Origin: Henricia sp. BOLD:AAB3569 | Lineage: Eukaryota > Echinodermata > Asteroidea > Spinulosida > Echinasteridae | DNA: 64,000 nucleotides | Assembly: GCA_037783545.1 (NCBI GenBank) | Contig: JBBELK010000930.1 | Coordinates: forward strand, 1-64,000 | Direction: 5' to 3' | In this document: one piece after another, positions 24,786 to 56,368 of the stretch | Numbering within the stretch: the stretch's first letter is position 1 | How the letters are laid out: every line of letters starts with the position of its first letter | The notes under the pieces: generated by a model | Told to the model about the DNA's origin: nothing | The model's input: the letters and a program-made list of their open reading frames with translations, nothing else | Database searches by the model: none | Made by a program: the position numbers and the translations under genes

Positions 24786-25481
24786 TTAATGTGGGGATTG
24801 CCCCTTTAATTTGACCTCTGACCCGTCTCTATAGTTACAAACCTATTTACATGTCACGCAGAGCTCGAAAGAAATCTAGGCGCCACTGTGTGAAGTAGTG
24901 CCGCCCAGTATTAGGACGAGGTTCTACTCCTAATCGCATATGTAAAACCAAGAACAGTATGTTGTCTCGCATAGTGCTGTGTACCCTTGGGGATACTGGT
25001 CAGATGGTATTTTAATTCGTTATGTAATTTGTAGTGCATTGTACCGCGCATCGATATGCACTCTTGTAAGCTGTACGTTCATTTCGCGGTTTCGGCCTTT
25101 TTGCCATGTCTGACTGCCTGGCAGCGGGAGTTTGTCGCCAGAGCTGAGCTCCAAACGTGCAGAATTGTTGCAGTCCTGCAACTCCAGCCTACTCTTTTTG
25201 GCAAAGGGAATACTCCCTTCACCCCCTGGCATCTGGGTGAGTGAAATTCTGAATCTCTGGGCATATCTTTGCGATGGTACAAAGCCGTTTTGGGGTTATT
25301 GTTGACAACTTTTTGTAAAGTACATGGCGCATGCACGTGTACACGTACATGTACTATGCGTAAATTGTATGGCTAGCCTGGCGGACAGAGCCATTTGTCG
25401 TGCATGCTCCACGTAAACGTTGTCTAAGGGTTGCGTGCTGTGCGCACTGTTTATTTGGATAGCCTGGATTCCAGAACGTTA

Positions 25482-25487
25482 TATAAA
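25482..25487 (+). promoter_or_regulatory. LTR TATA box (TATAAA)
   Basis: TATAAA within GTTATATAAATGG of the 5' LTR, about 170 bp before the AATAAA signal. Repeated in the 3' LTR at 33546-33551. Probable core promoter of the retrotransposon. Confidence 0.6.
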
Positions 25488-25649
25488 TGGCTATTCTTTG
25501 ACAGAATGCATTCATATTGTGAGTGCTAGGGCTGTACGTAAGTTGCCATAATTATATTGTATTATTCCTGATGTTTAAGAAGTTAATTAAGATTTCTTTG
25601 TTTTGTTCATTGATAGGGTTTTTCTTTTACTCGGTTGGTATGATGAGGA

Positions 25650-25655
25650 AATAAA
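25650..25655 (+). promoter_or_regulatory. LTR polyadenylation signal (AATAAA)
   Basis: AATAAA downstream of the TATA box, the order expected for U3-R-U5. The functional copy would be in the 3' LTR at 33714-33719. Confidence 0.5.
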
Positions 25656-25786
25656 TCAGATATCATCAAGAACATATAAATCCAGCAGTGGTCCAGTCCA
25701 TCCCTTACTCGGAGGTCACTCTCCGCCCCTACGGAGGCTCACGCCCCGCCCCCCAGCTGATGCACACCCGTCTCGCTACAATTTAT

Positions 25787-25804
25787 TGGCGTCGTAGGCA
25801 GGAT
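25787..25804 (+). promoter_or_regulatory. Candidate tRNA primer-binding site
   Basis: TGGCGTCGTAGGCAGGAT starts six bases after the 5' LTR. TGG complements the CCA end of a tRNA, as in most LTR retrotransposons. I cannot assign the primer tRNA without comparison to the host tRNA set. Confidence 0.55.
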
Positions 25805-26313: not shown

Positions 26314-27402
26314 ATGGCCTTGCCAGAGTGCCTGGCCGAAGCCATTACAAAATCTAACGAAGCCTTGGCCGAAACACTTGCTAGCGCATTCAAAAACCTA
26401 AAGTATCAGCGAGCCTCAACCGTAAAGCTCTCAAAATTCAATGGGCGCCCCAAAAAGTCGGGTGACCCAACACTTAACGAGTGGTTGGATGGTGTTGATG
26501 CATATTCGCGACAGCTAGGGCTCAGTGATGAGGAAAAACTAAGTGTGGCAATTGACTACCTTGGGGGCGATGCCAAAGAGGAGATCCGTTGTTGCCCAAA
26601 AACAGAAAAATGCGAGTTTGGCAAGTTAGTTGCCGTGCTAAAATCACGATTTGGTTCAAAGGAAACCGTGCAAACATTAAATTGCACATTTTACACTAGG
26701 AACCAACTAGAAGGGGAAAGCCTTGAAGACTTTAGTAGAGCTCTCATGCGGTTATATGACCGTATGGAATTAGCTTCGATAGACCCCAACGAGAAAAAGG
26801 CATTGAAGCAACTTAAGCAGGGTGCACTAAAAGAACAGCTAATTCGTGGCGTGCGTGACACAATGGCGAAGCGCGAACTACGTAGGCTGGTTCACGAAAA
26901 TCCACAACTTCCTTTTTTTCAATTCCGTGAGCTTGCGTTGAAAATTTTTAGGGATGTAGACTGTGAACCTGTGACAAGTCCTCCTACATATTCCACAACT
27001 GGGCCGAGTGTTCTGACCCCACACGTGGATGCCGTGACTTCTTCGAAGGGCGCACGCGCGACCAGTGAAATTGAGTTGCTGTCTGGGCTGCTGGAGGGCC
27101 AGAAACAGCTGCGCGAATCAGTAGAGCGCATTGCACAGCACCAAGTAGACACTAACAAAAATATTCTGATGCTAACAGAAGCTATTGCGACCAGAGGGTC
27201 TATCCGCCCTGAGAGGCCACAGCAAAACCCCCAAAGGCGAAAAAGCACTGTGCAGTGCACTTACTGCAACAAAACTGGGCATGCCTTTGAGAATTGCTTT
27301 AAGAAGAAATATGACCTAAAGAACGTAAATGACCAGAAAGCAGGTAGTCAGCCGAAAATTAGCGACGTACATGTGACGGAAAACATGTCGCCTCCGTTGT
27401 AA
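26314..27402 (+). CDS. gag: Gag of the gypsy element
   Basis: Structural protein forming the particle and binding the element RNA. 362 residues from an ATG in good context (GCAATGG). The middle part (about residues 45-185) has the look of retrotransposon capsid: LNEWLDGVDAYSRQLG, then KSRFGSKETVQTLNC, FYTRNQLEGESLEDFSRAL. Near the C-terminus is a single CCHC zinc knuckle (C315, C318, H323, C328; CTYCNKTGHAFENC) followed by a lysine-rich stretch, the nucleocapsid-like end. Its last 40 bases overlap the open pol frame, which is shifted by -1. A 533-bp leader separates it from the LTR. The frame is intact. Confidence 0.92.
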   Translation: MALPECLAEAITKSNEALAETLASAFKNLKYQRASTVKLSKFNGRPKKSGDPTLNEWLDGVDAYSRQLGLSDEEKLSVAIDYLGGDAKEEIRCCPKTEKCEFGKLVAVLKSRFGSKETVQTLNCTFYTRNQLEGESLEDFSRALMRLYDRMELASIDPNEKKALKQLKQGALKEQLIRGVRDTMAKRELRRLVHENPQLPFFQFRELALKIFRDVDCEPVTSPPTYSTTGPSVLTPHVDAVTSSKGARATSEIELLSGLLEGQKQLRESVERIAQHQVDTNKNILMLTEAIATRGSIRPERPQQNPQRRKSTVQCTYCNKTGHAFENCFKKKYDLKNVNDQKAGSQPKISDVHVTENMSPPL

Positions 27403-30400
27403 AGGGCAACACTCCGGAGGACGACGAAAAGCCCACATTTTCCCCTATTGTTTATAATGTAAATAAGGTCTGCACGGAGGCTGATCGAGGCAAACTTTTT
27501 GCAAGTTGCCCTACTGCCGAGATTTTGATCAGTGGAGTTCCAGCCAAGTGTGTTCTTGACACTGGGGCTGAAACTTCAATGATCTCTTCGGAATTTTACA
27601 GCAACCATCTGGCCAAAGTAGTTGGGGAATTAGGTAATGTGGGTGGATTCTTCAAGCTGTTAGGCGCTAACCATCTTGAGATACCGCTCGAGGGTTATTT
27701 GGAAGCTCAGGTGGAAATTCTTGGTCAGAAATTCCCTGCTAGTTTTGTCGTTTCTAGCAAGAAAGAGTGTCCCAATTCTAGAAATAAAAGCATGCCAGTT
27801 TTGCTGGGATGCAACATCTTGAGAAAGGTAGCATTAAGTGCAAAATTTTTGGAGAGCTGTCCACCAAACTCGGGGTGGGATTTAGCAATTCGTTGGTTTC
27901 GCTCCGTTGCAGCTGGTAGTATGGAAATGAGGGTTCCTGGACCTACAAAACTCATGCCCCCGGTTGATATTTTAACTAATGGTGAAGAAACCATACAGCC
28001 AGGGACAGCGAGAGAGATCCACTGTGTGTTAAGTGGTTTATCAACCGAATCATGTCGTGGACTGATGTTAGTCCAGTCACACCCACTTTGTTCGTCCGAT
28101 AGTGCAGATGATACCGAGGCTGTGTGCCACGTTATTGAGGGCGTTCTGGAAATAGATGGGCCTGGTGTCTCATTACTGGTTGCTAATGCAGGCTCTAATC
28201 CATTGCTTGTCCCTTCCTCTACCAAGGTGGCTACTGCAACCAAAGTTGGTCTGACAGAGCAAGTTATGGTCGATTCCTGTGAGGACAGCTTCCGTGTTTC
28301 TGTCCACAGTGTGGTGGCAGATACGTCAGAGATGTCTGGCAGTGGTGCTGACACTTCTGAGCCAGTGGGTTCAGATTGCTCTGGGCATAGTGATGCACAG
28401 AGTTCATGTGATCAGCAGCGGGAGTTGTTTTTATTTCCTGACGGGACAGACTTTTTGCTGCCTCATGGGATCAGCTTAAGGAATATGAGCGCCACAGATG
28501 CACCGTTGGCAGCCGAATTGATTCGGAAGCACCAGGGCGTATTCTCCCAAGGTGCATTTGACCTAGGCTATACAGACCTAATTCCACACCAGATCAGTCT
28601 TTCAGACGACAGGCCAGTTAACTTACCATATCGTCGAATTATCCCTAGCCAAATAGCAGAGGTGAAAAAGCTGCTGCAGGATTTGCTTGACCGGAACATT
28701 ATCAGAAAATCAATGAGCCCATATGCAAGCCCTATTGTGCTGGTGAGGAAGAAGGATGGGCAATTTCGCCTATGTATCGACTATAGGTGTCTCAACGTTA
28801 AGACACATCGAGATGCATTCCCTCTTCCTAGGATTGATGAGACCCTGGAGTCACTGGGAGGGGCTAAGTTATTTTCTTCCTTAGACTTAGCGCATGGCTA
28901 CTTTCAAGTAGCCATGCACCCAGACTCGGTGGAAAAGACGGCCTTCAGGGTTCCTTGGGGCTTGTACGAGTTTCTTCGTCTTCCCATGGGGCTCTGCAAC
29001 AGCCCCAGTACCTTCCAGAGGATTATGGAGTCTATTTTTGGAGACTTGAACCTCTCCGAACTCGTCTTGTACTTGGACGACCTGCTTGTCTTCTCTGACA
29101 CATTTGATGAGCATTTGAGGAGGTTGGATAGGGTCTTCAGTCGGCTTGAGAATCATGGCCTAAAATTAAAAGGCACCAAGTGCCAGTTGTTCTGTACTTC
29201 TGTGACACACTTGGGTCATATCGTAAGTGATCAGGGTATCGCTGTGGACCCTAGCAAGATCGAGAGGATAAGGGACTGGCCAACCCCAACAAACCTGGAG
29301 CAGTTGCGCTCCTTTCTGGGCCTCGCGTCCTACTATAGGCGCTATGTTAGCGGCTTTGCCAAAATTGCGGCGCCTTTGCATGCCCTGAGCGGTAACGCTC
29401 TTGAAAAAGTAGGGAACTCTAGGGGGTCTCTGGGTTGGTCACCCGAGGCTGACGAAGCCTTTAGGGTCTTGAAAAGGGCCCTTTGTAACACTCCTGTCCT
29501 GTCGTATCCGCGATTTGACCGCGACTTTGTGCTCGAGATCGATGCGTCCCTCAAAGGACTTGGGGCATGCTTGTCTCAACGTGACGATTCTGGTTGTCTT
29601 CACCCAGTGGCGTATGCCAGCAGGGGGCTTAGAGGGGCAGAGCGGAACTATTCCGACCTCTCTAGCTTTAAATTAGAACTTCTCGCCCTAAAATGGGCTG
29701 TATCAGAGAAGTTTAGGGAATATCTTTGGGGTAGACATACTGTAGTCTGGACTGATAACAGCCCTGTGGCACACTTGCAGACTGCTAAGCTGGGTGCCAC
29801 GGAACAGCGTTGGGCTGCCCAGTTGGCTCCATTTGACCTAGAAATTAGGTATCGCTCTGGGCGAAGCAACAAATGCGCAGATGCGCTCAGCCGGAACCCA
29901 CCTGAAGTGGCTGATGTTCAGATAGCTTGTGTGTTTCAGACTTTGACCGATAATACATCCGTCCCAGTAAATATGAGGCACCCTAGCCTGGATCACCCCG
30001 TTGGAAGAGAAGACAAATCAAATCTATCTGACAGTGGCATGCCCGTGGTGGCACCTTCGGTGTTCCCATCCTACTCTCATGATGATCTGAGGGGGATGCA
30101 GAGACAAGACGAAGCAATTGGAAAAGTGTGGAGTCTTTGGGACCGTCGCTGGGATCCTGGTCAGGGTTCCCTAGAAGGTGATAGCACCAGTGCAGAAGTC
30201 AAAGGATGGATCAGGGAGTGGCCACGTCTGGTAGAGCATCGTGGTGTGTTATACAGATCAGTCGAGGACCCAGGCCTTGGTCAGGTCTTACAGTTGTTGG
30301 TACCAAAACGTCTGCGAAAGGTAGTCCTTGAAGCATCGCATGACCAGTGGGGTCACCAGGGCGTAGGAAGGACCCTCAACTTTATCAGACGGCGTTGCTT

Positions 30401-31616
30401 TTGGCCGGGGATAAGTGGCTACGTGCGAGATCATATCCGGAACTGCTACCACTGTACGGTCTCCAAAGCACCTACACCGACAGTGCGACCACCCTTGAGG
30501 CACTTACTAGCCTTCCGCCCACTCGAGAGGTTGGCTATTGACTTTTTGAAACTTGACCGTGGCCGAGGAAATTTCGAGGACGTCCTCGTTATGACGGACT
30601 CATTCACAAAATTTGCGGCAGCCGTGCCATGCAAAGATCAGACAGCACATACGGTGGCTCGTGTTTTACAGAATGAGTGGTTTGCACGTTATGGGATACC
30701 AGCACAGATCCATTCGGACAGAGGGAGAAGCTTTGAGGGTCACTTGGTGCAGGAATTGTGTGTGCTGTACGGAATAAAGAAGACGAGAACCTCTCCTTAC
30801 CATCCTCAAGGGAACGGCCAAACAGAAAGATTTAATAAGACGCTTTGTAACCTAATTAAATCTCTGGATAGCCAAAGCAGAAGCAGGTGGCCGGAGTTAC
30901 TCCCTTATCTCGTCTTCATATATAACAGCACACCTCACTCTGTTACTGGCTTTGCGCCACATACCCTCATGTTTGGCCGAGAACCCCTTGTGCCCATTGA
31001 CCATCTCATCAGCAATACCGACCGAAGCTGGAATGAGGACGCTGTTCGGCGGCAGGCCACGTTTATTAAGCGTGCACATAAGCTGGTGAAGGACCGCATG
31101 ATTAGTGCGGCAGCCGCAAAAAAGCAGCGTTACGATAAGCTAGCAAGTGCCAGCCCTCTTCCAATTGGGAGTAGAGTGTTGATTAAGCAGTGTTCTTTCA
31201 CTGAAAGGCATAAACTGAGCAACCACTTCGGCGAGAAACAATATGTCGTAGTCAAATGCAATACTGCAAAAGACCTGTTTGCAGTTAGGCCTGCTCTAGG
31301 TGGTCCAGAGAAATGGCTCAACAGAAAAATGTTGATCCTCGACCCGAGAGGAGAGCTCGTCATGCGTAAAGATCCATTACGAGGGTTGCCTACCGTCACT
31401 GACTGTTGTTCTAATTCCGATGCAGGGTCAACTTCAGACGAATCCGATGAGGAGCCACTAGTTTTGGTGCCACAGGAGCTTAAAGAGCCCACGGTGGAGC
31501 AGCCTCCTTCTAGTCAGGCAAAGGACATTGATTCCGCAGACGGACAACAACCGCGGCGCTCCAAACGCCTTCGACAGAAGCGCTGTTTGGGCAGCTGGCC
31601 AACCGGTATTACCTAG
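27363..31616 (+). CDS. pol: Pol polyprotein: protease, RT, RNase H, integrase
   Basis: Open in the -1 frame from 27363 (after TAG at 27360-27362) to 31616; it has no early ATG, so expression by -1 frameshifting from gag is likely. Numbering residues from base 27525: aspartic protease DTGAE at 12-16; RT with YLDD at 516-519; RNase H beginning FVLEIDAS (D673); integrase zinc-binding HHCC region from H939 (H-x3-H...C-x2-C); catalytic core D1006, D1065, E1101, spacing D-58-D-35-E. The C-terminal ~60 residues before the tail resemble the GPY/F-type module, and the tail is acidic then basic (RRSKRLRQK). No chromodomain recognised. All catalytic residues checked are present and no stops interrupt the frame, so the protein may be functional. 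Confidence 0.95.
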   Translation, partial: RRTCDGKHVASVVKGNTPEDDEKPTFSPIVYNVNKVCTEADRGKLFASCPTAEILISGVPAKCVLDTGAETSMISSEFYSNHLAKVVGELGNVGGFFKLLGANHLEIPLEGYLEAQVEILGQKFPASFVVSSKKECPNSRNKSMPVLLGCNILRKVALSAKFLESCPPNSGWDLAIRWFRSVAAGSMEMRVPGPTKLMPPVDILTNGEETIQPGTAREIHCVLSGLSTESCRGLMLVQSHPLCSSDSADDTEAVCHVIEGVLEIDGPGVSLLVANAGSNPLLVPSSTKVATATKVGLTEQVMVDSCEDSFRVSVHSVVADTSEMSGSGADTSEPVGSDCSGHSDAQSSCDQQRELFLFPDGTDFLLPHGISLRNMSATDAPLAAELIRKHQGVFSQGAFDLGYTDLIPHQISLSDDRPVNLPYRRIIPSQIAEVKKLLQDLLDRNIIRKSMSPYASPIVLVRKKDGQFRLCIDYRCLNVKTHRDAFPLPRIDETLESLGGAKLFSSLDLAHGYFQVAMHPDSVEKTAFRVPWGLYEFLRLPMGLCNSPSTFQRIMESIFGDLNLSELVLYLDDLLVFSDTFDEHLRRLDRVFSRLENHGLKLKGTKCQLFCTSVTHLGHIVSDQGIAVDPSKIERIRDWPTPTNLEQLRSFLGLASYYRRYVSGFAKIAAPLHALSGNALEKVGNSRGSLGWSPEADEAFRVLKRALCNTPVLSYPRFDRDFVLEIDASLKGLGACLSQRDDSGCLHPVAYASRGLRGAERNYSDLSSFKLELLALKWAVSEKFREYLWGRHTVVWTDNSPVAHLQTAKLGATEQRWAAQLAPFDLEIRYRSGRSNKCADALSRNPPEVADVQIACVFQTLTDNTSVPVNMRHPSLDHPVGREDKSNLSDSGMPVVAPSVFPSYSHDDLRGMQRQDEAIGKVWSLWDRRWDPGQGSLEGDSTSAEVKGWIREWPRLVEHRGVLYRSVEDPGLGQVLQLLVPKRLRKVVLEASHDQWGHQGVGRTLNFIRRRCFWPGISGYVRDHIRNCYHCTVSKAPTPTVRPPLRHLLAFRPLERLAIDFLKLDRGRGNFEDVLVMTDSFTKFAAAVPCKDQTAHTVARVLQNEWFARYGIPAQIHSDRGRSFEGHLVQELCVLYGIKKTRTSPYHPQGNGQTERFNKTLCNLIKSLDSQSRSRWPELLPYLVFIYNSTPHSVTGFAPHTLMFGREPLVPIDHLISNTDRSWNEDAVRRQATFIKRAHKLVKDRMISAAAAKKQRYDKLASASPLPIGSRVLIKQCSFTERHKLSNHFGEKQYVVVKCNTAKDLFAVRPALGGPEKWLNRKMLILDPRGELVMRKDPLRGLPTVTDCCSNSDAGSTSDESDEEPLVLVPQELKEPTVEQPPSSQAKDIDSADGQQPRRSKRLRQKRCLGSWPTGIT

Positions 31617-31912
31617 CTAGATTACTGACTGTATTGCTAAAGCGACTTGGGGCCTTACTGTTTTAATACATGCATTGAAGAGGGTTGCCTGCGTTGAGCA
31701 GGACATGGTGTATTGCCACCTCTGTATGCATGCTTGTCTGTCACAAGGCCTGGTAAAAGTTTCAGTCCCATATGTTAAGTCACATATGCTACAGTTCAGG
31801 TCCTGACTTTAATACTTGTTAATGTGTTTTAGAAATTGCTGCTTATATACTTCTGTAGTTCGGGAGTTCCTGTATAAACGTTAAATTCGCCGTACCTTTC
31901 TGTTATTTGGCA
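31617..31912 (+). other. Pol to third-ORF spacer with candidate splice acceptor
   Basis: Non-coding spacer of 296 bp. A pyrimidine-rich run ending in CTTCTGTAG (AG at 31857-31858) lies 55 bp before the start of the hydrolase gene and could serve as a 3' splice site, by analogy with spliced env messages. This is inference. Confidence 0.35.
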
Positions 31913-32515
31913 ATGTCTGCGAAGCCCCATGTTTATTTGTTTGGGCATTCTTTCGTAAAAAGGCTAGAAAGGAAAGCCTACGTGGAACACCGGTCCGTAC
32001 AGGATTTGATTGGACTGGCAGGGGAAATTGAACTAAGTGTGGAAGGTTATCCAGGCTTAACCTACGATAGGTTGTTTGGTAGTACAGACCATTACTGCCA
32101 TAAAATGCAGTTGAGGCCCGTAGATGCATTATTAGTTGATATGGGAACAAACGATCTTTGCAGTTTAGAGGTTACGCCTGATGTTCTTGTACAAAAGACA
32201 TTTGAATTCCTGCGTTTGTTAGAAAGCAAAGGGATATCATCCCACCAGGTTGTGTTCCTATCCATAATACAAAGGTCTACAATCTCTAGAGCTGGACAAG
32301 CCTCTTTGTCTACCTTCAACCACCGAGCAAAAAGATTTAATTCGCTCTTTGGCCTCAGGTTGAAGTCAGTTTGTCATAATGTACATGTCTATGCACAAAA
32401 GCGAGTAAACAATCCTAAGTACTTAGATGATGGATGTCATCTGAACGCCAGTGGCATGGTGAGGTACTGTAAAGGGCTTCGTGAGGTTATAATTCGTCAT
32501 GCGCTTCACTGTTAA
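31913..32515 (+). CDS. SGNH/GDSL-type hydrolase-like accessory protein of the gypsy element
   Basis: 200 residues from ATG 31913, in a different frame from pol. It shows all four SGNH blocks: LFGHSFVKRL near the N-terminus (nucleophile Ser13; GHS replaces the usual GDS), EGYPGLTYDRL (Gly45 or Gly48), VDMGTNDL (Asn80), and DDGCHLN (Asp173-x-x-His176). Spacing and length fit the single-domain esterase/lipase fold. No signal peptide or membrane helix is apparent, so it is probably intracellular. Related esterase domains are known in ORF1 of CR1-type LINEs; finding one as a separate gene in the env position of a gypsy element is unusual to my knowledge. Substrate unknown; a role in membrane or lipid interaction during particle assembly or intracellular movement is speculation. 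The frame is intact in a young element, suggesting it is retained for use. Confidence 0.85.
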   Translation: MSAKPHVYLFGHSFVKRLERKAYVEHRSVQDLIGLAGEIELSVEGYPGLTYDRLFGSTDHYCHKMQLRPVDALLVDMGTNDLCSLEVTPDVLVQKTFEFLRLLESKGISSHQVVFLSIIQRSTISRAGQASLSTFNHRAKRFNSLFGLRLKSVCHNVHVYAQKRVNNPKYLDDGCHLNASGMVRYCKGLREVIIRHALHC

Positions 32516-32853: not shown

Positions 32854-33844
32854 TGTGGGGATTGCCCCTTTAATTTGACCTCTGACCCGTCTCTATAGTT
32901 ACAAACCTATTTACATGTCACGCAGAGCTCGAAAGAAATCTAGGCGCCACTGTGTGAAGTAGTGCCGCCCAGTATTAGGACGAGGTTCTACTCCTAATCG
33001 CATATGTAAAACCAAGAACAGTATGTTGTCTCGCATAGTGCTGTGTACCCTTGGGGATACTGGTCAGATGGTATTTTAATTCGTTATGTAATTTGTAGTG
33101 CATTGTACCGCGCATCGATATGCACTCTTGTAAGCTGTACGTTCATTTCGCGGTTTCGGCCTTTTTGCCATGTCTGACTGCCTGGCAGCGGGAGTTTGTC
33201 GCCAGAGCTGAGCTCCAAACGTGCAGAATTGTTGCAGTCCTGCAACTCCAGCCTACTCTTTTTGGCAAAGGGAATACTCCCTTCACCCCCTGGCATCTGG
33301 GTGAGTGAAATTCTGAATCTCTGGGCATATCTTTGCGATGGTACAAAGCCGTTTTGGGGTTATTGTTGACAACTTTTTGTAAAGTACATGGCGCATGCAC
33401 GTGTACACGTACATGTACTATGCGTAAATTGTATGGCTAGCCTGGCGGACAGAGCCATTTGTCGTGCATGCTCCACGTAAACGTTGTCTAAGGGTTGCGT
33501 GCTGTGCGCACTGTTTATTTGGATAGCCTGGATTCCAGAACGTTATATAAATGGCTATTCTTTGACAGAATGCATTCATATTGTGAGTGCTAGGGCTGTA
33601 CGTAAGTTGCCATAATTATATTGTATTATTCCTGATGTTTAATAAGTTAATTAAGATTTCTTTGTTTTGTTCATTGATAGGGTTTTTCTTTTACTCGGTT
33701 GGTATGATGAGGAAATAAATCAGATATCATCAAGAACATATAAATCCAGCAGTGGTCCAGTCCATCCCTTACTCGGAGGTCACTCTCCGCCCCTACGGAG
33801 GCTCACGCCCCGCCCCCCAGCTGATGCACACCCGTCTCGCTACA
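32854..33844 (+). repeat. 3' LTR
   Basis: 991 bp, identical in length to the 5' LTR, offset 8,064 bp. Only T33643 versus G25579 differs in my reading. Followed by the TTAA target duplication. Confidence 0.95.
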
Positions 33845-34850: not shown

Positions 34851-36120
34851 GCTAGAACATGTTAGCCGGCGCGAAGGTCTGTACGGTACCTGGAATACCT
34901 CGCACATTACTCTATGCATTTTGAAGCTGGACCATCCGAAATTACATGTTGAAATGAGCATGTTGAAACATGTACTCGCCATGAAATTTCAAAAAAATAA
35001 CGAGTTAGAACTTCTTGTTTGACTCGAAATGGACGTTAACTTTGAAAGCTGGATCGTTCCAAATCTGTGCATGATAAATTCAAGAAAAGAGTAACGATTT
35101 CGGATTACTAGTATGAGACTGGTTTAAAGTTGCCGATTGAACGTCGAACCCGAACGAAGGGAGACGTATACACTATATATACAGCAAACTTGACTTGAAA
35201 TAGGGGAAATAAGATGACATGCAGCTGGTAAATCTTGCCACAATATGATAACATTAATATCGCCGTTGATTGTTTATCCATTTGACGGAACATCGTCAGA
35301 AACTGGCAAGTTTTACTGTTCCAGAACTAGTCTTGGTGCAAGACGATACTGCGTGATATTTGTCACTGTACCGCCGCGCGCTAACCAACATTCACCGACA
35401 TTCGCCAAGAGAGGGCGCCATACACTGTACTATGGGGACAGGGAACCAGTCTACGTCCGTGCTCTGCAGTATCGTCTTGGGACTTTTCCTAAATCCGCTC
35501 GGGAAATTCCGAGCGCATTCCAAGCATTGCTCATTATGCCATGCATACCTATGACGTAGGGCTTATTAACATATTTTAAGCCGAGCGCTGTGAAGTCTGG
35601 TACCTGTACGTACGTCTTATCAAACAGGAAAAGCACACGTTATCGCGTCAGACAAGTCCGTGCTTTATTTGTTTTTAAAAGAAAAAATACGAAAATGTGG
35701 CAATGGGGCAAGTTTTTCCAATGGATTCAACGAACTTCGGCTTTGGTTTGTCGGCCCGGCAACTGAAGCCGTTATTTGGCTGAACCCGTACGCTGCAGAA
35801 ACGTGTCTTTGTTATGATTTCACAGACTGCGAAAACCGTACGGCACCAGCACTCGCTGGCTAAGCTAGCGCTACTCAGCCGTCGGACGAGACTGAGAACT
35901 AATGCGTCCTGTGTTTTTGAAGAAAAAACATAATTTTGTTTTTACTACTAAAATCACGTTTCCTCGCCAAATTTAAAGATAGTACATGATTGGTAAACTG
36001 TTGCAAATAGTTTTATCCCCCTGTGTGATTGAAGATATGCATGATTAAAACCAACCTGAGCAAAAACCAGCTCCGTACTTCGTCTAACTTTTGAGAAAAC
36101 AGTCAAAAAAGATTGCAGTC

Positions 36121-36330
36121 ATTTCGCCTCAAAACCACTTCGCCCTGAACCATTTCGCCCTGAACCTCGGCCTGTGCACGAAGTGGTTTGGGGGCGAAGT
36201 AGCATGTGGGCGATGTAGTGTTTGTACGAAGTGATTTGGGGCGAAATGGCACTCGGGCAAAGTGGTTTGGGGGCGAAATGGCACTTGGGCGAAATGGTTT
36301 TGGGGCAAACTGAATGTTTGTCTCATTAGA
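36121..36330. repeat. GGGCGAAGTGG interspersed repeat cluster
   Basis: Left part has CCACTTCGCCC / CCATTTCGCCC, right part its complements GGGCGAAGTGG / GGGCGAAATGG, each spaced about 17-20 bp. The cluster is an inverted repeat built of short direct repeats. Open frames across it are compositional artefacts. Confidence 0.7.
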
Positions 36331-36439
36331 CGAAAACTAATTGTTTTACTCATTTCTCAAAGACTATAGCACTTCAGACAAAACCATTTCAGGGGAAGTT
36401 TTCTACGGTCATCTTGTTAATATTGTGTAAGTTTGGCGT

Positions 36440-36990
36440 AAATCTGTGAACATTTCTGATTTTCGAGAATTATAGTGGCAAACGTGTATACAAAAATTTT
36501 CTGATTTTTTTTTTTTAAACAAAAGGTCATGCGCTGTTTCCGCAATTTTGATCGACGTCTCGCAGCAACTTGGGGAAAATCAAAAGTTCAATTATGAAGA
36601 AAAATGATTCTCTATAGCTACACACAATTAATTTACAACAGATTTTAGAAATACTTTGGTTGCAAAAATTGACCAAGCGGTTGCTGTGTTATGCTTGGTA
36701 CAGTTCGTCCATCTCCGTGCGGAATATAGTGAATTTACCACTAAAAATTGTGACGCTGGCAAAGGGCAGGCTTTAGTTTGTGGGCGACAAACAGCACCCG
36801 TAGCACACGTTTATTAGAATACAATTTTAAACAAATACGAACAAGTGTCCCCATGAACAGTAGACAGTTTCACAAATCTGTCCGAGCAAACACGAACCTG
36901 GACCGGACACGATCGAACTTTTTGGTATATTTAGCAGGCATCGCATTTTCATTATTCCCGGTCCGGCACACGCAAAATTCTACAAAATGT
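36440..36990. repeat. Diverged inverted relative of the 39.1-39.7 kb element
   Basis: Blocks such as CGACGTCTCGCAGCAACTTG, AGCAACCGCTTGGTCAA (as complement), AACACGAACC and GATCGAACTTTTTGG recur as reverse complements at 39130-39650, with indels. Non-coding. Confidence 0.65.
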
Positions 36991-37754
36991 GTGCAATGCC
37001 GTGCGGCACGCACAGAAACGGTCTCGAAATCGGTCGGAAAATTGCACTTTCTTTAAGAATGTAACTCAGTCATTGTACTCGGCTAAAACCTCGATAGGCT
37101 ACTTGAACCTCAGATGGTGTACAACGTGTATTTGTGGCCATTTTGAGGTTACAACTGTTGCTTTTTGGGGGCGTGTGTGGATCGGGAATTCCACCGCGAG
37201 GCGCGGGCCGCGCCGGGTAAGTCTATAGCTCGGCAGCGGAAAATCTGAGCCGTTCTTTTAAATTTTACGTTGATGATTCTCCCCAATTTGTAACACACTT
37301 GATTCGGGTATAACGTATATACAAGTGGCTTTTTTTTAAGGATATATGGGACCATGATCTCGTAGGAAGGAAATAACCCTAGCTGTGCAGGCACAGAAAG
37401 TTGCCAGGCTGGCATGCTCATTATGTGGAACTCTGTTGACCTCTATAATGAATATGTATAAGCTTAGGTTAGAGGTCACACAGTGTCACATACCAACGTT
37501 CGACAAATGTCCCAAGACGATACTGGAGACAGGTGTGTATGGCGCCCTCTCTTGGCGATTGTCGGTGAGTGTTGGTTAGCGCGCGGCGGTCAGTGACAAA
37601 TATCACACAGTATCGTCTTGCACCAAGACTATTCCAGAACGCGCGTTCAACATAACAGCGAGCGACTCTCGTTTTGCGTACATGACCGGCATATTTTAAA
37701 TACACCTTCCGAAGCCCAAATAAAATTGCGCGAAATGCATCAACCTAGTACGCA

Positions 37755-37867
37755 ACTTACTTGGCAAGGGAGATGATATTATCCCATATACCCGACTCTG
37801 AAACTGATGGTGGCTTACTTAGTAAGGGATATGATATGATCCCAAATACCAAACTCTGAAAGTGATG
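37755..37867. repeat. ~57-bp tandem repeat interrupted by foldback element (left part)
   Basis: Two units with TTACTTGGCAAGGGAGATGA, TTATCCC and ACTCTGAAA(C/G)TGATG blocks. The array resumes in the same orientation at 38713-38810 after the foldback element, so the element split an existing minisatellite. Confidence 0.75.
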
Positions 37868-38712
37868 TAGCCCCGCGAGCAGTGCTTCGGTTTTCGGAAC
37901 CTTAGCCCTGTGTTCTGCTATACACCAAATCTGTGGCAAACTCACGCAAATGAAATTTGGCCCACGGCTCTGATATTTGCTCAATAGGTGCACTCACCCC
38001 AGTTTATAAATATTCCGAAGAGTACGCATCGATCCGATGTCTAGTTTCGGTGAAATCGTGGGGACAGTTTGAGACCTTAATTGCCATCAAATTCACACTC
38101 TTTGACCAAAAATCAAATATGCGCATGCGCGAGGGCGGAGAGGTCAACATAATAGCGCCATCTCGCGACGGCGTCGTCACGTACCAGCTGCACAGCGGCT
38201 GTTTCATGAGAGAGCACATCGACTCTATCGCGCGGTACGTTCTACACCGGAGGTAGGTTGTAGCATGTACTACACGGTCACAACAAATTCTACCTCCGGG
38301 TTACCTCCGACCTCCGGGTTTCAACGATACCCGTGTAGAACGTACCGCGCGATAGAGTCGATGTGCTCTGTCATGAAACAGCCGCTGTGCAGCTGGTACG
38401 TGACGACGCCGTCGCGAGATGGCGCTATTATGTTGACCTCTCCGCCCTCGCGCATGCGCATATTTGATTTTTGGTCAAAGAGTGTGAATTTGATGGCAAT
38501 TAAGGTCTCAAACTGTCCCCACGATTTCACCGAAACTAGACATCGGATCGATGCGTACTCTTCGGAATATTTATAAACTGGGGTGAGTGCACCTATTGAG
38601 CAAATATCAGAGCCGTGGGCCAAATTTCATTTGCGTGAGTTTGCCACAGATTTGGTGTATAGCAGAACACAGGGCTAAGGTTCCGAAAACCGAAGCACTG
38701 CTCGCGGGGCTA
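37868..38712. mobile_element. 845-bp foldback element, 380-bp TIRs, 9-bp target duplication
   Basis: TIRs 37868-38247 and 38333-38712 differ at a single base by my reading (in the codon giving R versus T in the mirrored frames), enclosing an 85-bp loop. Tips are TAGCCCCGCGAGCAG. AAAGTGATG flanks both sides (37859-37867, 38713-38721). Long TIRs with a 9-bp duplication suggest a Mutator-like non-autonomous element. Mirrored ~100-codon frames in the arms follow from the palindrome and match no protein I know. Confidence 0.9.
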
Positions 38713-38721
38713 AAAGTGATG

Positions 38722-38815
38722 GTGGCTTACTTGGCATGGGAGATGATATTATCCCAAATATCGAACTCTAAAACGCACGTTGACTTATTTGGCATGGGTG
38801 ATTAAACCAAATACA
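38722..38815. repeat. ~57-bp tandem repeat (right part)
   Basis: Continuation of the array at 37755-37867: TGGCTTACTTGGCATGGGAG, TTATCCCAAATA, then a decayed unit. Same orientation as the left part. Confidence 0.7.
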
Positions 38816-39050
38816 AAGTTCTTAGCATGAGTGAATGCATAAACGAACCAGCTAGTTGGTTGGATGTGGAAAGTGAAGACAAACCCGAGTTATTCTTTTA
38901 TTTGTATATTGTAATTCGCGATTGTTTTTAAAATCAATACAAACCCTGTATTTGATAACAAAGTTTTGTTTTATTAAAACGATTTACCAAAAAACGCAAT
39001 TTTCGAAAAAAAGTGAACTAATTTAGTTCACATTGAGAATATTTGCTGTT

Positions 39051-39786
39051 TCAAGTGGATATATAAATACCGTACACCCTCGCCACTAATTATTTATAAT
39101 ATGACATGATGATGCCCCCAGAATGCGTAAATTTGGTTAGGAAACATGAATTTTGCGTGTGTGGACCGGGAATAATGGAAATGCGATGCCTGCTAAATAT
39201 ACCAAAATAAAAGAAGTTCGATCGTGTCCCGGTTCGTGTTTGCCAGGCAGATTTGTGAAACTGCATGTGTACTGTTAGGGGCGATACTTGTTCGTATTTG
39301 TTTAACATTGTATTCTAATAAACGTGTGCTACGGCTGCTTTTTGTCGCCCAAAAATTAAAGCCTACCCGTTGCCAGCGTAGTCTAGTGTGTGCATGGTAT
39401 GAGCGCAATAACATGGGCGCTTTTTTCACATAACAATTTTTAGTGGTGAATTCACTTGTATTCCGCACGAATATGGACAAACTCTACAACGCATAACACA
39501 GCAACCGCTTGGTCAAGTTTTTGAAGCCAAAGTATTTATAAAATCTGTTGTAACTTGTATGTAGCTATAGAGAATCATTTTAATTCATAATTGAATTACT
39601 TTTGATTTTCCGCAAGTTGCTGCGAGACGTCGATCATTTGCGGAAACAAATAGGCATGACTTTTTGTTTTTAAAAAGATTAAGAACATTTTTGTATACAT
39701 GTTTGCCACTAATTCTTCATGCCGAACGTTTAAATTTTTAAGAATTAATGGCGAGGGTGTACGGTATTTATATCTCCACTTGATTA
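39051..39786. mobile_element. ~736-bp element with ~40-bp TIRs
   Basis: Left tip CAAGTGGATATATAAATACC (39051) and right tip, its near complement, ending 39786; the inverted similarity covers the TACACCCTCGCCA block, about 40 bp. The interior is related, inverted, to 36440-36990. No transposase and no clean target duplication seen. Confidence 0.65.
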
Positions 39787-40404
39787 CATGTAAGTCGCGT
39801 ACGTTGATGCATTTCTCGCGATTTTATTTGGGCTTCGGAAGGTGTATTTAAAATATGCCGGTCATAGTACGCACAGGTTGGCAAAACGAGAGTCGCTCGC
39901 TGTTATGTTGAACGCGCGTTCTGGAACAGTAAAACTCGTCAATTTCTGACGATGTTCCGTCGAATCGATAAACAATCAACGGCGATATTAATTTTATCAT
40001 ATTGTGGCAAGATTTACCAGCTGCATGTCATCCTATTTTCCCTATTTCAAGTCAAGTTTGTATACGTCTCCCTTCGTTCGGGTTCGACGTTCAATCGGCA
40101 ACTTTAAACCAGTATCATAACCCGAAATCGTTACTCTTTTCTTGAATTTATCATGCACACATTGGGAACGATCCAGTTTTCAACGTTAACGTCCATTTCA
40201 TGTGAACAACATGTTCTAACTCGTTATTTTGACGTTATTTTGAGTACATGTTTCAACATGCTCATTTCAACATGTAATTTCGGATGGTCCAGCTTCGAAA
40301 TGCATAGAGTAATGTGCGAGGTATTCCAGGTACCGTACAGACTTTCGCGCCGGCTAACATGTTCTAGGATTTATGCAAATCTATCACGCAACTGGCTTAT
40401 TTAA

Positions 40405-53956: not shown

Positions 53957-55300
53957 AAATGATTAATGCACAGTTTCTTTGAAGATGGGAGCACTGGACT
54001 TGTAGGACCTATTAAAATATTTCTCATGCTCAATTGTTCTGCGGAACAATGGTCCGTGTGGCACTGCTAGCTCGCATGAGCAGTTGCCAATTACTTTTGC
54101 AACTTCCCGAATGGTCGGCATTTGTTGATTCATAAGTTTCTGTATTGACGAAATGATGGTTTCTACTTTGGGCTCTGGGATTGAAATTCTCATAAGGTTA
54201 GAGTCCAAATTAAACCCAAGGAAATCAATTTCCCGTGTCGGGGCTAGAACAGGCCTTTTCTCATTAATCGTGAATCCCAGCTCGTGGGTTAAGGAAATTA
54301 TTCTGGACACATTCTGGACAATATTCTGGACAATATTCTGGACTCATTCTTTGAATGTTCTGCACAAGAGAAGTGAATCGTCTAAATAATCGCACAATTC
54401 AAAACCCCGTAACCTCAGAGAGGCAACAAGTAGTTTCATTACTTTAGTGAAACACGTTTCATTACTTTAGTGAAACACGTTTCATTACTTTAGTGAAACA
54501 CGTTTCATTACTTTAGTGAAACACGTTTCATTACTTTAGTGAAACACGTTTCATTACTTTAGTGAAACACGTTTCATTACTTTAGTGAAACACGTTTCAT
54601 TACTTTAGTGAAACACGTTTCATTACTTTAGTGAAAGCACATGCCAAGCCAAAAGGTAGGCAGGTAAATTCGTACAACTTATTGTCCCATGTGAATCGTA
54701 AGAATTTCCTTTGTTCACTTGCGATTGGCACGGCAAAATAAGCGTCCTTCAAATCTACAGACGCCATGTAACATCCAGGTCTTAATAGCTGGATTGCCGT
54801 GCGGATTGTCTCCATTTTAAAATGGAAATACGCTACAGATGCATTTAAACCTTCGAGATTGATAATAGGCCGATTAGATTCATCTTTTTTAGGCCTAATG
54901 AAAATTGTGGTAATATATTCGCCTTTACAATGTTCCGTTTGAACAATCGCTCCCTTTTGAAGCATTGTGGCTATTTTTTCGGCTACAATTTTAGCCTCAT
55001 GGGGTTCAAAATGTAATTCCTTCGGAATGTACGTTTGATGTGGCACAGAAATATATTCAATATGATGGTGTTGGACACTGTCCAGCACCCATCCATCGGA
55101 TGTGATCTTATGCCATTGGGCAATATGATGTGCCAATTTATCTGCCAGGATTTCCCCCTGTATTTACCAAGAGCGTTATCACATTTGTGCCATCGTCTAC
55201 TTTCTGCTTTTCGATGGTCTTTCATTGAGGGACTCGAGGACAGGGTTTGCATTGCGTCCGCCATACCGGTCATCTGGTCTTGTACTGTTGCAAACTCTTC
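53957..55300 (-). pseudogene. DIRS-like retrotransposon RT/RNase H fragment (minus strand)
   Basis: On the minus strand, 55136-54600 encodes RPIINLEGLN, YMASVDLKDAYFAVPI, RKFLRF and YEFTCLPFGLACAFTKVMK, typical of DIRS/Ngaro reverse transcriptases. After a tandem repeat (54433-54636) the frame resumes with FELCDYLDDSLLL (about 54400), then a short 11-12 bp repeat, then LGFTINEK, IDFLGFNLDS and TIREVAKVIGNCS (54310-53963), the usual RT-to-RNase H region. Upstream (55273-54983) a gag-like segment is in another frame. The tyrosine recombinase was not seen. Repeat expansions and frame changes mark it as dead. Confidence 0.85.
54433..54636. repeat. 23-bp minisatellite inside RT coding sequence, ~9 units
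   Basis: GTTTCATTACTTTAGTGAAA + CAC repeated almost without variation. One unit corresponds, on the minus strand, to the native codons for FTKVMK, so the array grew from coding sequence. Because 23 is not a multiple of 3 the reading frame is broken. Confidence 0.95.
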
Positions 55301-55536: not shown

Positions 55537-55773
55537 GTGTTGTTGTTGTTGTTAATTTATGGCATCTAGGGCATACTTTATTATCAACTATACTTAATTA
55601 TCAACTTGAGATGACGAAGAAGGAGTTGCAATTCCAGAAGTGGGAGGAAAACCTACGCGGGGTAAACACAAGTAGGGACTGCAAACCCAATCCACATACA
55701 CGCCCCGGATTCGAACCCGGGACGCCAGAGGTGAAAGGCGAGGAAAGAACCGCTACGCCAACCCGACCGCACC
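55537..55773 (-). mobile_element. tRNA-derived SINE (copy A)
   Basis: Same family as 34566-34850, minus strand, with an internal ~50-bp deletion near its 3' part. B box GGTTCGAATCC complement at 55707-55717. Flanked by 15-bp direct repeats CACTGAGGTGTGTTG at 55522-55536 and 55774-55788. Confidence 0.9.
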
Positions 55774-55788
55774 CACTGAGGTGTGTTG

Positions 55789-56072
55789 TTGTTGTTAATT
55801 TTATGGCATCTTCAGCAATTAAAGCCCTTTATGCCATCGACTATACGGTTTTATCTTTAACTATACTTTATTATCAGCTTGAGATGACGAAGAAGGAGTT
55901 GCAGTTTTAGAAGTGGGAGGAAAACCCCAAGAGAAATACCCGGGGGGAACACACGCGGACAAGTAGGGACTGCAAACTCAATCCACATACACGCCCCGGA
56001 TTCGAACCCGGGACGCCAGAGGTGAAAGGCGAGGAAAGAACCACTACGCCAACCCGACCGCCTACTCACTGG
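55789..56072 (-). mobile_element. tRNA-derived SINE (copy B)
   Basis: Full-length copy, minus strand, immediately beyond the right target repeat of copy A. Head has A box TGGCGTAGTGG and B box GGTTCGAATCC. Its right flank CACTGGGGTGTTG (56077) resembles its left flank. Confidence 0.9.
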
Positions 56073-56089
56073 GGTGTTGTTGTTGTTGT

Positions 56090-56368
56090 TGTTAATTTTA
56101 TGGCATCTTCGGCAACTAAGGCCCTTTATGACATTAACTGTACGGGTTTAGCTCTAAAGTTTAACTATACTTTATTATCAACTTGGGATGACGAAGAAGG
56201 AGTTGTAGTTTTAGAAGTGGGAGGAAACCCTCAGAGAAATCCCCAGGGGAAAACCCACGCGGTCAAGTAGGGACTGCAAACCCAATCCACATACACGACC
56301 CGGATTCGAACCCGGGACGCCAGTGGTGAAAGGCGAGTAAAGAACCACTACGCCAACCCGACCGCCCC
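56090..56368 (-). mobile_element. tRNA-derived SINE (copy C)
   Basis: Third copy in the same orientation, A and B boxes intact, (AAC)n tail at its left. No matching right-hand target repeat was found, so it may derive from tandem duplication rather than a separate insertion. Confidence 0.88.

Follow-up and report, generated by a model that had tools for sequence, protein, structure and literature searches.

SGNH (GDSL-type) hydrolases are encoded by several kinds of mobile elements. The closest described arrangement is that of the Vesta1 long terminal repeat (LTR) retrotransposons of bdelloid rotifers, in which a GDSL esterase gene, open reading frame 3 (ORF3), lies downstream of pol (PMC5408684; statements on published systems refer throughout to excerpts of the cited papers). 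Its product has been proposed to help in crossing membranes or to serve as an auxiliary factor, and within genomes the gene showed no departure from neutrality (PMC5408684). In Ngaro elements an SGNH frame follows the recombinase (PMC9210276), and a hydrolase is mentioned in some Ngaro-like elements (PMC6681497). The ORF1 proteins of CR1, L2 and RTEX long interspersed nuclear elements (LINEs) carry an esterase as well, and that of ZfL2-1 has a low turnover and binds acidic phospholipids, mainly via surface charge (PMC3905857). The Texim SGNH genes are moved by fish Helitrons (PMC4021074). Here we describe a free-standing SGNH hydrolase gene, likewise called ORF3, between pol and the 3' LTR of a gypsy-type retrotransposon in 64,000 nucleotides of DNA from Henricia sp. 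BOLD:AAB3569 (contig JBBELK010000930.1). This whole stretch is called the window, and positions are counted from its first letter.

Like Vesta1, the window element is an LTR retrotransposon in which pol is followed by a GDSL/SGNH ORF3 whose catalytic residues are intact, and the membrane-related auxiliary role considered below was also weighed by the authors of the rotifer study (PMC5408684). The likeness is one of arrangement and residues. The two systems differ in several respects. Vesta pol has a dUTPase between protease and reverse transcriptase, whereas none was found in the window pol at E<=1; Vesta LTRs are 159-551 bp long, compared with 991 bp here; and Vesta1 showed no departure from neutrality within genomes, whereas strong constraint is seen here between families (PMC5408684). 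A lack of constraint in some within-family pairs does resemble the bdelloid report (PMC5408684).

Ngaro elements are also retroelements with an extra SGNH frame after the integration enzyme, but they have a tyrosine recombinase and split direct repeats, whereas the window element has LTRs and a DDE-type integrase (PMC9210276). No Ngaro-type tyrosine recombinase was found in pol by Pfam, and the integrase core rve is present instead. The LINE esterases share with ORF3 the property of being retroelement-encoded SGNH hydrolases, but they are domains of a larger coiled-coil ORF1 protein encoded upstream of pol, whereas ORF3 is a stand-alone protein of 200 amino acids encoded downstream of integrase (PMC3905857). 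An ORF3 profile gave no significant match to the ZfL2-1 chain 4c1b (E 0.086), and the absence of this chain from the best 50 structure matches listed excludes nothing. Texim genes are SGNH hydrolase genes tied to a mobile element, but they contain introns and lie beside a DNA transposon, with no reverse transcriptase (PMC4021074). The catalytic subunits of brain platelet-activating factor acetylhydrolase Ib (1bwp, 3dt6 and others), a cellular enzyme, are 14-17% identical to ORF3.

The original prediction knew of no described gypsy lineage with a free-standing SGNH gene between pol and the 3' LTR, a view that must yield to the published Vesta1 ORF3 (PMC5408684). No other gypsy element with an SGNH gene was found in open-access titles and abstract openings, among the matches listed, in a search outside of which Repbase lay. 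In the excerpts of other literature naming both gypsy retrotransposons and SGNH, the latter appears solely in the title of a reference or in connection with plant genes, and the terms esterase, hydrolase and SGNH are absent from the paper on Troyka (PMC12440569). With its rotifer precedent, the present case is a striking further instance of a known, poorly understood arrangement.

An SGNH hydrolase gene in the env position

ORF3 occupies an open stretch at 31907..32515 of the forward strand, with an ATG at 31913, 200 codons and a stop codon at 32513-32515. It starts 296 bp beyond the pol stop in a different reading frame, and 338 bp separate its end from the 3' LTR. All SGNH blocks are present: GHS at residues 11-13, G48, GTND at residues 78-81 and DGCH at residues 173-176. 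The catalytic residues are invariant in an alignment (A2) of the window ORF3 with 23 of 29 retrieved proteins, where S13 is found in 22/22, G48 in 24/24, N80 in 24/24, D173 in 21/21 and H176 in 21/21 of the rows having a residue at that column. The predicted structure of the protein is an SGNH fold, and the nearest solved folds, among the matches listed, include acetylhydrolases and sialate O-acetylesterases.

Profile searches extend this assignment to the relatives of ORF3. Lipase_GDSL_2 was matched by 11 of the 12 members of a second alignment (A1) at E<=0.01, and some genomic relatives pass the curated cut-off of this model (for example C684:202186, at 42.6 bits). A scan of IMG/VR with A1 found no relative by tblastn. 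The SGNH fold, the A1 profile matches and the selection described below confirm that the frame is a real SGNH gene beyond chance, and we consider it almost certain that the gene is both genuine and under selection. The intact 200-codon SGNH frame after pol that had been predicted is therefore borne out, together with its fold.

Distribution, history and constraint of ORF3

A search of the same genome (740.7 Mb in 2104 contigs) with the ORF3 protein, in which 150 of 157 candidates were scored, gave at least 126 matches at E<=0.001; one with the last 448 pol residues, in which 94 of 1907 candidates were scored, gave at least 95 rows. Seventy-seven of the 126 ORF3 matches span at least 175 residues; 65 of these are stop-free and 12 have one or more stops. 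For 59 of the 77, a pol match on the same strand ends 226-941 bp (median 472) upstream. The remaining 18 are not necessarily free of pol, as C616:476805 is absent from the pol rows yet has pol in its locus, L041. Random decay or absence of the frame in other copies, which had been named as grounds for doubting the gene, is thus not what these copies show. Many of the rows are probably alleles or duplicates (for example C684/C809, and six groups of identical frames among 27), so they do not represent independent insertions.

Among 20 loci of about 9.5 kb, which are the best-scoring rows cut at fixed distances, all 20 have pol followed by ORF3, and 18 have gag sequence, which in two of them amounts to no more than a piece of 37 residues. 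Direct repeats that are at least 98% identical and separated by more than 3 kb are present in 13 of the loci. A frame with an ATG and an intact first block is present in 27 of 30 ORF3 loci; the exceptions are L010 and L011, which are partial, and L026, in which the first block is altered and a stop is present.

The presence of ORF3 follows pol identity. An ORF3 match occurs within 3 kb downstream of 4/4 pol rows at 90-100% pol identity, 49/57 at 56-89%, 16/21 at 49-55% and 1/13 at 40-48%. The single row in the last class, C1527 (47%), is probably a decayed member, as its pol stretch contains five stops. The 16 ORF3-bearing rows at 49-55% carry a divergent ORF3 subfamily that is 29-35% identical to the window protein and 48-59% identical to the protein P0015. 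This subfamily has 24 rows of at least 150 residues, of which two have a stop and 16 have pol upstream. The pattern is consistent with the history we infer, in which ORF3 was gained once, close to the root of the clade, and then inherited, with occasional loss.

Trees of integrase and ORF3 (L012 and L030, with broken or no integrase, were excluded, and L014 and L016 were included) both separate L005/L008, L018, L023 and L028 from the rest, with support of 100 and 82, and differ in their interiors. Two proteins from other sources, P0001 and P0002 (63-64% identity), adjoin the window's family with support of 100 in a tree of 21 of the 29 retrieved proteins and 11 copies from this genome. Thus, the gene probably occurs beyond this genome.

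Selection on ORF3 was measured as omega, the ratio of nonsynonymous to synonymous rates. An omega of 0.127 (MG model) was obtained for 17 distinct ORF3 sequences, and imposing omega=1 costs 335 log-likelihood units. These sequences are from 17 of the 30 loci, after exclusion of nine identical duplicates, the partial L010 and L011, L026 with its internal stop and L027 with a frame cut short. In nine families with both regions (L028 was dropped from ten, as it has no stop-free long piece), ORF3 has an omega of 0.115, compared with 0.082 for C-terminal pol including integrase. Saturation of synonymous sites between most families leaves the exact values rough, but the direction is clear: related elements hold ORF3 under purifying selection, in agreement with the predicted retention of the gene. 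Across many element families of this genome, the constraint on ORF3 comes close to that on integrase, which suggests that a GDSL/SGNH third gene is more than a rotifer peculiarity of uncertain value.

Several observations weigh against this account of an SGNH gene inherited and kept by selection, or against the fuller explanation proposed below. The window ORF3 alone scores 20.2 bits against Lipase_GDSL_2 (E 9e-4), below the curated cut-off of 32.9, and so its SGNH assignment rests on fold and residues; the profile search suggested for it succeeded with its relatives and fell short with the protein itself. A PDB sequence search with this protein alone gave nothing at E<0.5, and an NCBIfam search matched nothing. 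No ORF3 match lies within 3 kb of 25 of the 95 pol rows. Three of the rows without a match with either ORF3 query (C195, C2027 and C162, at 52% pol identity) have pol frames of 1405 amino acids with no stop in the matched part, which suggests that ORF3 was lost or strongly diverged there and that the gene may be dispensable. In approximately unbiased (AU) tests, the integrase topology is rejected by the ORF3 data (p 0.0002) and the ORF3 topology is not rejected by the integrase data (p 0.08). This asymmetry makes exchange of ORF3 between families possible, and either occasional exchange or weak integrase signal might explain it. Two young within-family pairs have omega near or above 1 (L012/L014, 0.96; L016/L030, 1.88), most others falling at 0.31-0.57, all from few differences; ratios near or above 1 are what decay after insertion would give. 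Lastly, no splice acceptor common to the families was seen: a pyrimidine-rich AG occurs within 200 nt of the ATG in 9 of 11 representatives at varying distances, and in the other two there is none.

Two identical ORF3 frames, L035 and L036 (C412:1063676-1081380), lie 8,120 bp apart, and 1,465 bp are repeated at 100% with the same spacing. These are apparently tandem elements with a common LTR.

Possible functions of the ORF3 product

Fold, residues, position and constraint are computed results, from which activity and role are a further step. The 19-residue hydropathy maximum is 0.78 for the window protein and 0.74-1.29 across 11 representatives, all 11 of which are basic (charge +7 to +12, by count of K, R, D and E), and the first core strand of the predicted structure starts at residue 6. 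By these features the product looks like a soluble intracellular enzyme. The env hallmarks of a signal peptide and a transmembrane segment were not found in ORF3 by simple hydropathy, no dedicated signal-peptide program being used.

We propose that an ancestor of this gypsy-type clade gained an SGNH hydrolase gene, once or a few times, and that the gene would then have been inherited alongside gag and pol under purifying selection. Its product would be a soluble, basic and probably intracellular enzyme in which the Ser-Asp-His triad is intact and the Gly/Asn oxyanion residues are in place. The distance from the pol stop and the change of frame make translation from a spliced or separate mRNA probable. 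The protein might bind acidic membrane surfaces by charge, as the ZfL2-1 LINE esterase does, and hydrolyze an acyl or acetyl ester at the membrane, which could help the element's particles or ribonucleoproteins to be assembled, trafficked or released. ORF3 would then serve as an auxiliary enzyme occupying the position of env, not as an envelope protein. We hold this explanation as a whole tentatively, at somewhat less than an even chance. Its membrane role, argued by analogy, is a plausible one and the likeliest considered, ahead of action on a protein or signal ester.

That alternative, in which ORF3 acts on a protein or small-molecule ester and not on a membrane lipid (for example by depalmitoylating or deacetylating a host protein or signal), thereby tuning replication or countering host control, is possible but carries distinctly less of our confidence. 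The intact triad and the selection on the gene agree with it, as do the acetylhydrolases and sialate O-acetylesterases among the closest solved folds, and depalmitoylation has been put forward as one possibility for the LINE esterase (PMC3905857). However, a likeness of fold shows no function, and the substrate is conjectural. If catalysis were instead of little weight, ORF3 could be a structural, lipid-binding or RNA-binding protein. The low turnover of the ZfL2-1 esterase, whose liposome binding survives active-site mutations (PMC3905857), and the basic charge of every representative speak for such a protein, but we regard it as rather unlikely in view of catalytic residues that are unchanged across rows otherwise often less than 50% identical.

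The position of ORF3 would suit an env-like surface protein whose SGNH domain works outside the cell. Haemagglutinin-esterases of some viruses offer an extracellular-acting comparison. However, a core strand from residue 6 leaves no room for a signal peptide, and no 19-residue window in the 11 representatives has a hydropathy above 1.29, which makes this reading very improbable; an identity as Env was rejected on the lack of a signal peptide or transmembrane segment by simple hydropathy. Least credible of all is a passenger, a host gene captured by chance by one element. SGNH sequences are indeed common in the genome, but ORF3 has the same position in many divergent families and an omega near that of integrase, and chance capture was rejected on this conserved position and constraint.

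The proposed membrane-linked enzyme also admits a broader and more doubtful formulation, to which we give only modest credence. In a diversified gypsy lineage, the SGNH hydrolase might be a replication gene that defines the clade and has long been conserved. Acting on membranes or acyl groups within the cell, it would do work that falls to Env in other lineages, and it would come from a pool of SGNH enzymes common to gypsy, Ngaro, LINE and Penelope-like elements. The convergent acquisition raised in the original prediction would be an alternative to such sharing between retroelements, with neither favoured here. The question of why lipid- or ester-acting enzymes recur in unrelated retroelements is testable here, as the protein is small and soluble and natural sister lineages lack the gene.

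The host element and other features of the window

The element has LTRs, gag and a pol in the order protease, reverse transcriptase, RNase H and integrase, which places it in Ty3/gypsy, and TTAA target-site duplications lie on either side of it. Coordinates of its parts are given in the table.

Table. Parts of the gypsy-type element, in window positions.
Feature	Position	Strand	Details
5' LTR	24790..25780	+	991 bp, TG..CA; direct repeat with spacing 8064 and one mismatch (position 25579)
Putative primer binding site	25787..25804	+	begins TGG, 6 bp past the LTR; matched to no tRNA, proposed from sequence
gag	26314..27402	+	362 aa; Pfam PNMA 1.1e-5, 25.3 bits (cut-off 25); one CCHC knuckle, residue 315
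pol open frame (protease, reverse transcriptase, RNase H, integrase)	27363..31616	+	1417 aa; stop 31614-31616
ORF3, free-standing SGNH hydrolase	31913..32515	+	200 aa; blocks, fold, profile matches of relatives
3' LTR	32854..33844	+	991 bp; repeat of 24790-25780

A single mismatch between the LTRs points to recent insertion, and gag and pol are open, so the young gypsy host named in the original prediction is upheld. In pol (27525-31616), Pfam matches comprise RVT_1 (1.2e-33), two RNase H-type models (including RT_RNaseH_2), Integrase_H2C2 and rve (2.8e-12). The motifs DTGA (protease) and YLDD (reverse transcriptase) are present together with integrase motifs, and a profile of the pol family also recovers a retroviral-like protease (7e-4). 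The pol frame is -1 relative to gag and overlaps its end by 40 nt, an arrangement that makes a gag-pol frameshift likely.

In the interval between protease and reverse transcriptase (27939-28310 and its relatives), one of six members gave a weak dUTPase match (E 0.0013) and two of six matched Herpes_ORF11 (E 0.0051). A degenerate dUTPase-like domain, of the kind present in bdelloid LTR elements, may lie here. No dUTPase occurred among the 39 PDB rows of a profile search, and a dUTPase link to Vesta was dropped as too weak.

Lipase_GDSL_2 has at least 127 matches in the genome (150 of 212 candidates scored). These include repeated frames of 183, 189, 194 and 214 amino acids outside the ORF3 family and its divergent subfamily, and multicopy SGNH frames outside the ORF3 family span 183-257 amino acids. 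Other matches lie inside open frames of 609-673 amino acids, which could, as a guess from their length, be LINE ORF1. Repeated elements of more than one kind seem to encode SGNH enzymes in this genome.

Immediately downstream of the element, a near-palindrome of about 5.5 kb (34852-40367) has nested inverted arms, including two of 383 nt (37868-38250 and 38330-38712) that are 99% complementary and 79 nt apart. This might be a recent inverted duplication, a foldback element or an assembly artefact. An Rfam scan of the window gave nothing at gathering score. A tandem repeat at 54433-54636 has 8.9 copies of a 23-nt unit with 100% matches, and another at 55668-56366 has 2.4 copies of a 304-bp unit that includes a tRNA T-loop-like stretch and is perhaps tRNA-derived. 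A reverse transcriptase fragment is located at 54603-55136 of the reverse strand (RVT_1 E 1.6e-6, 28.4 bits vs a cut-off of 29.6).
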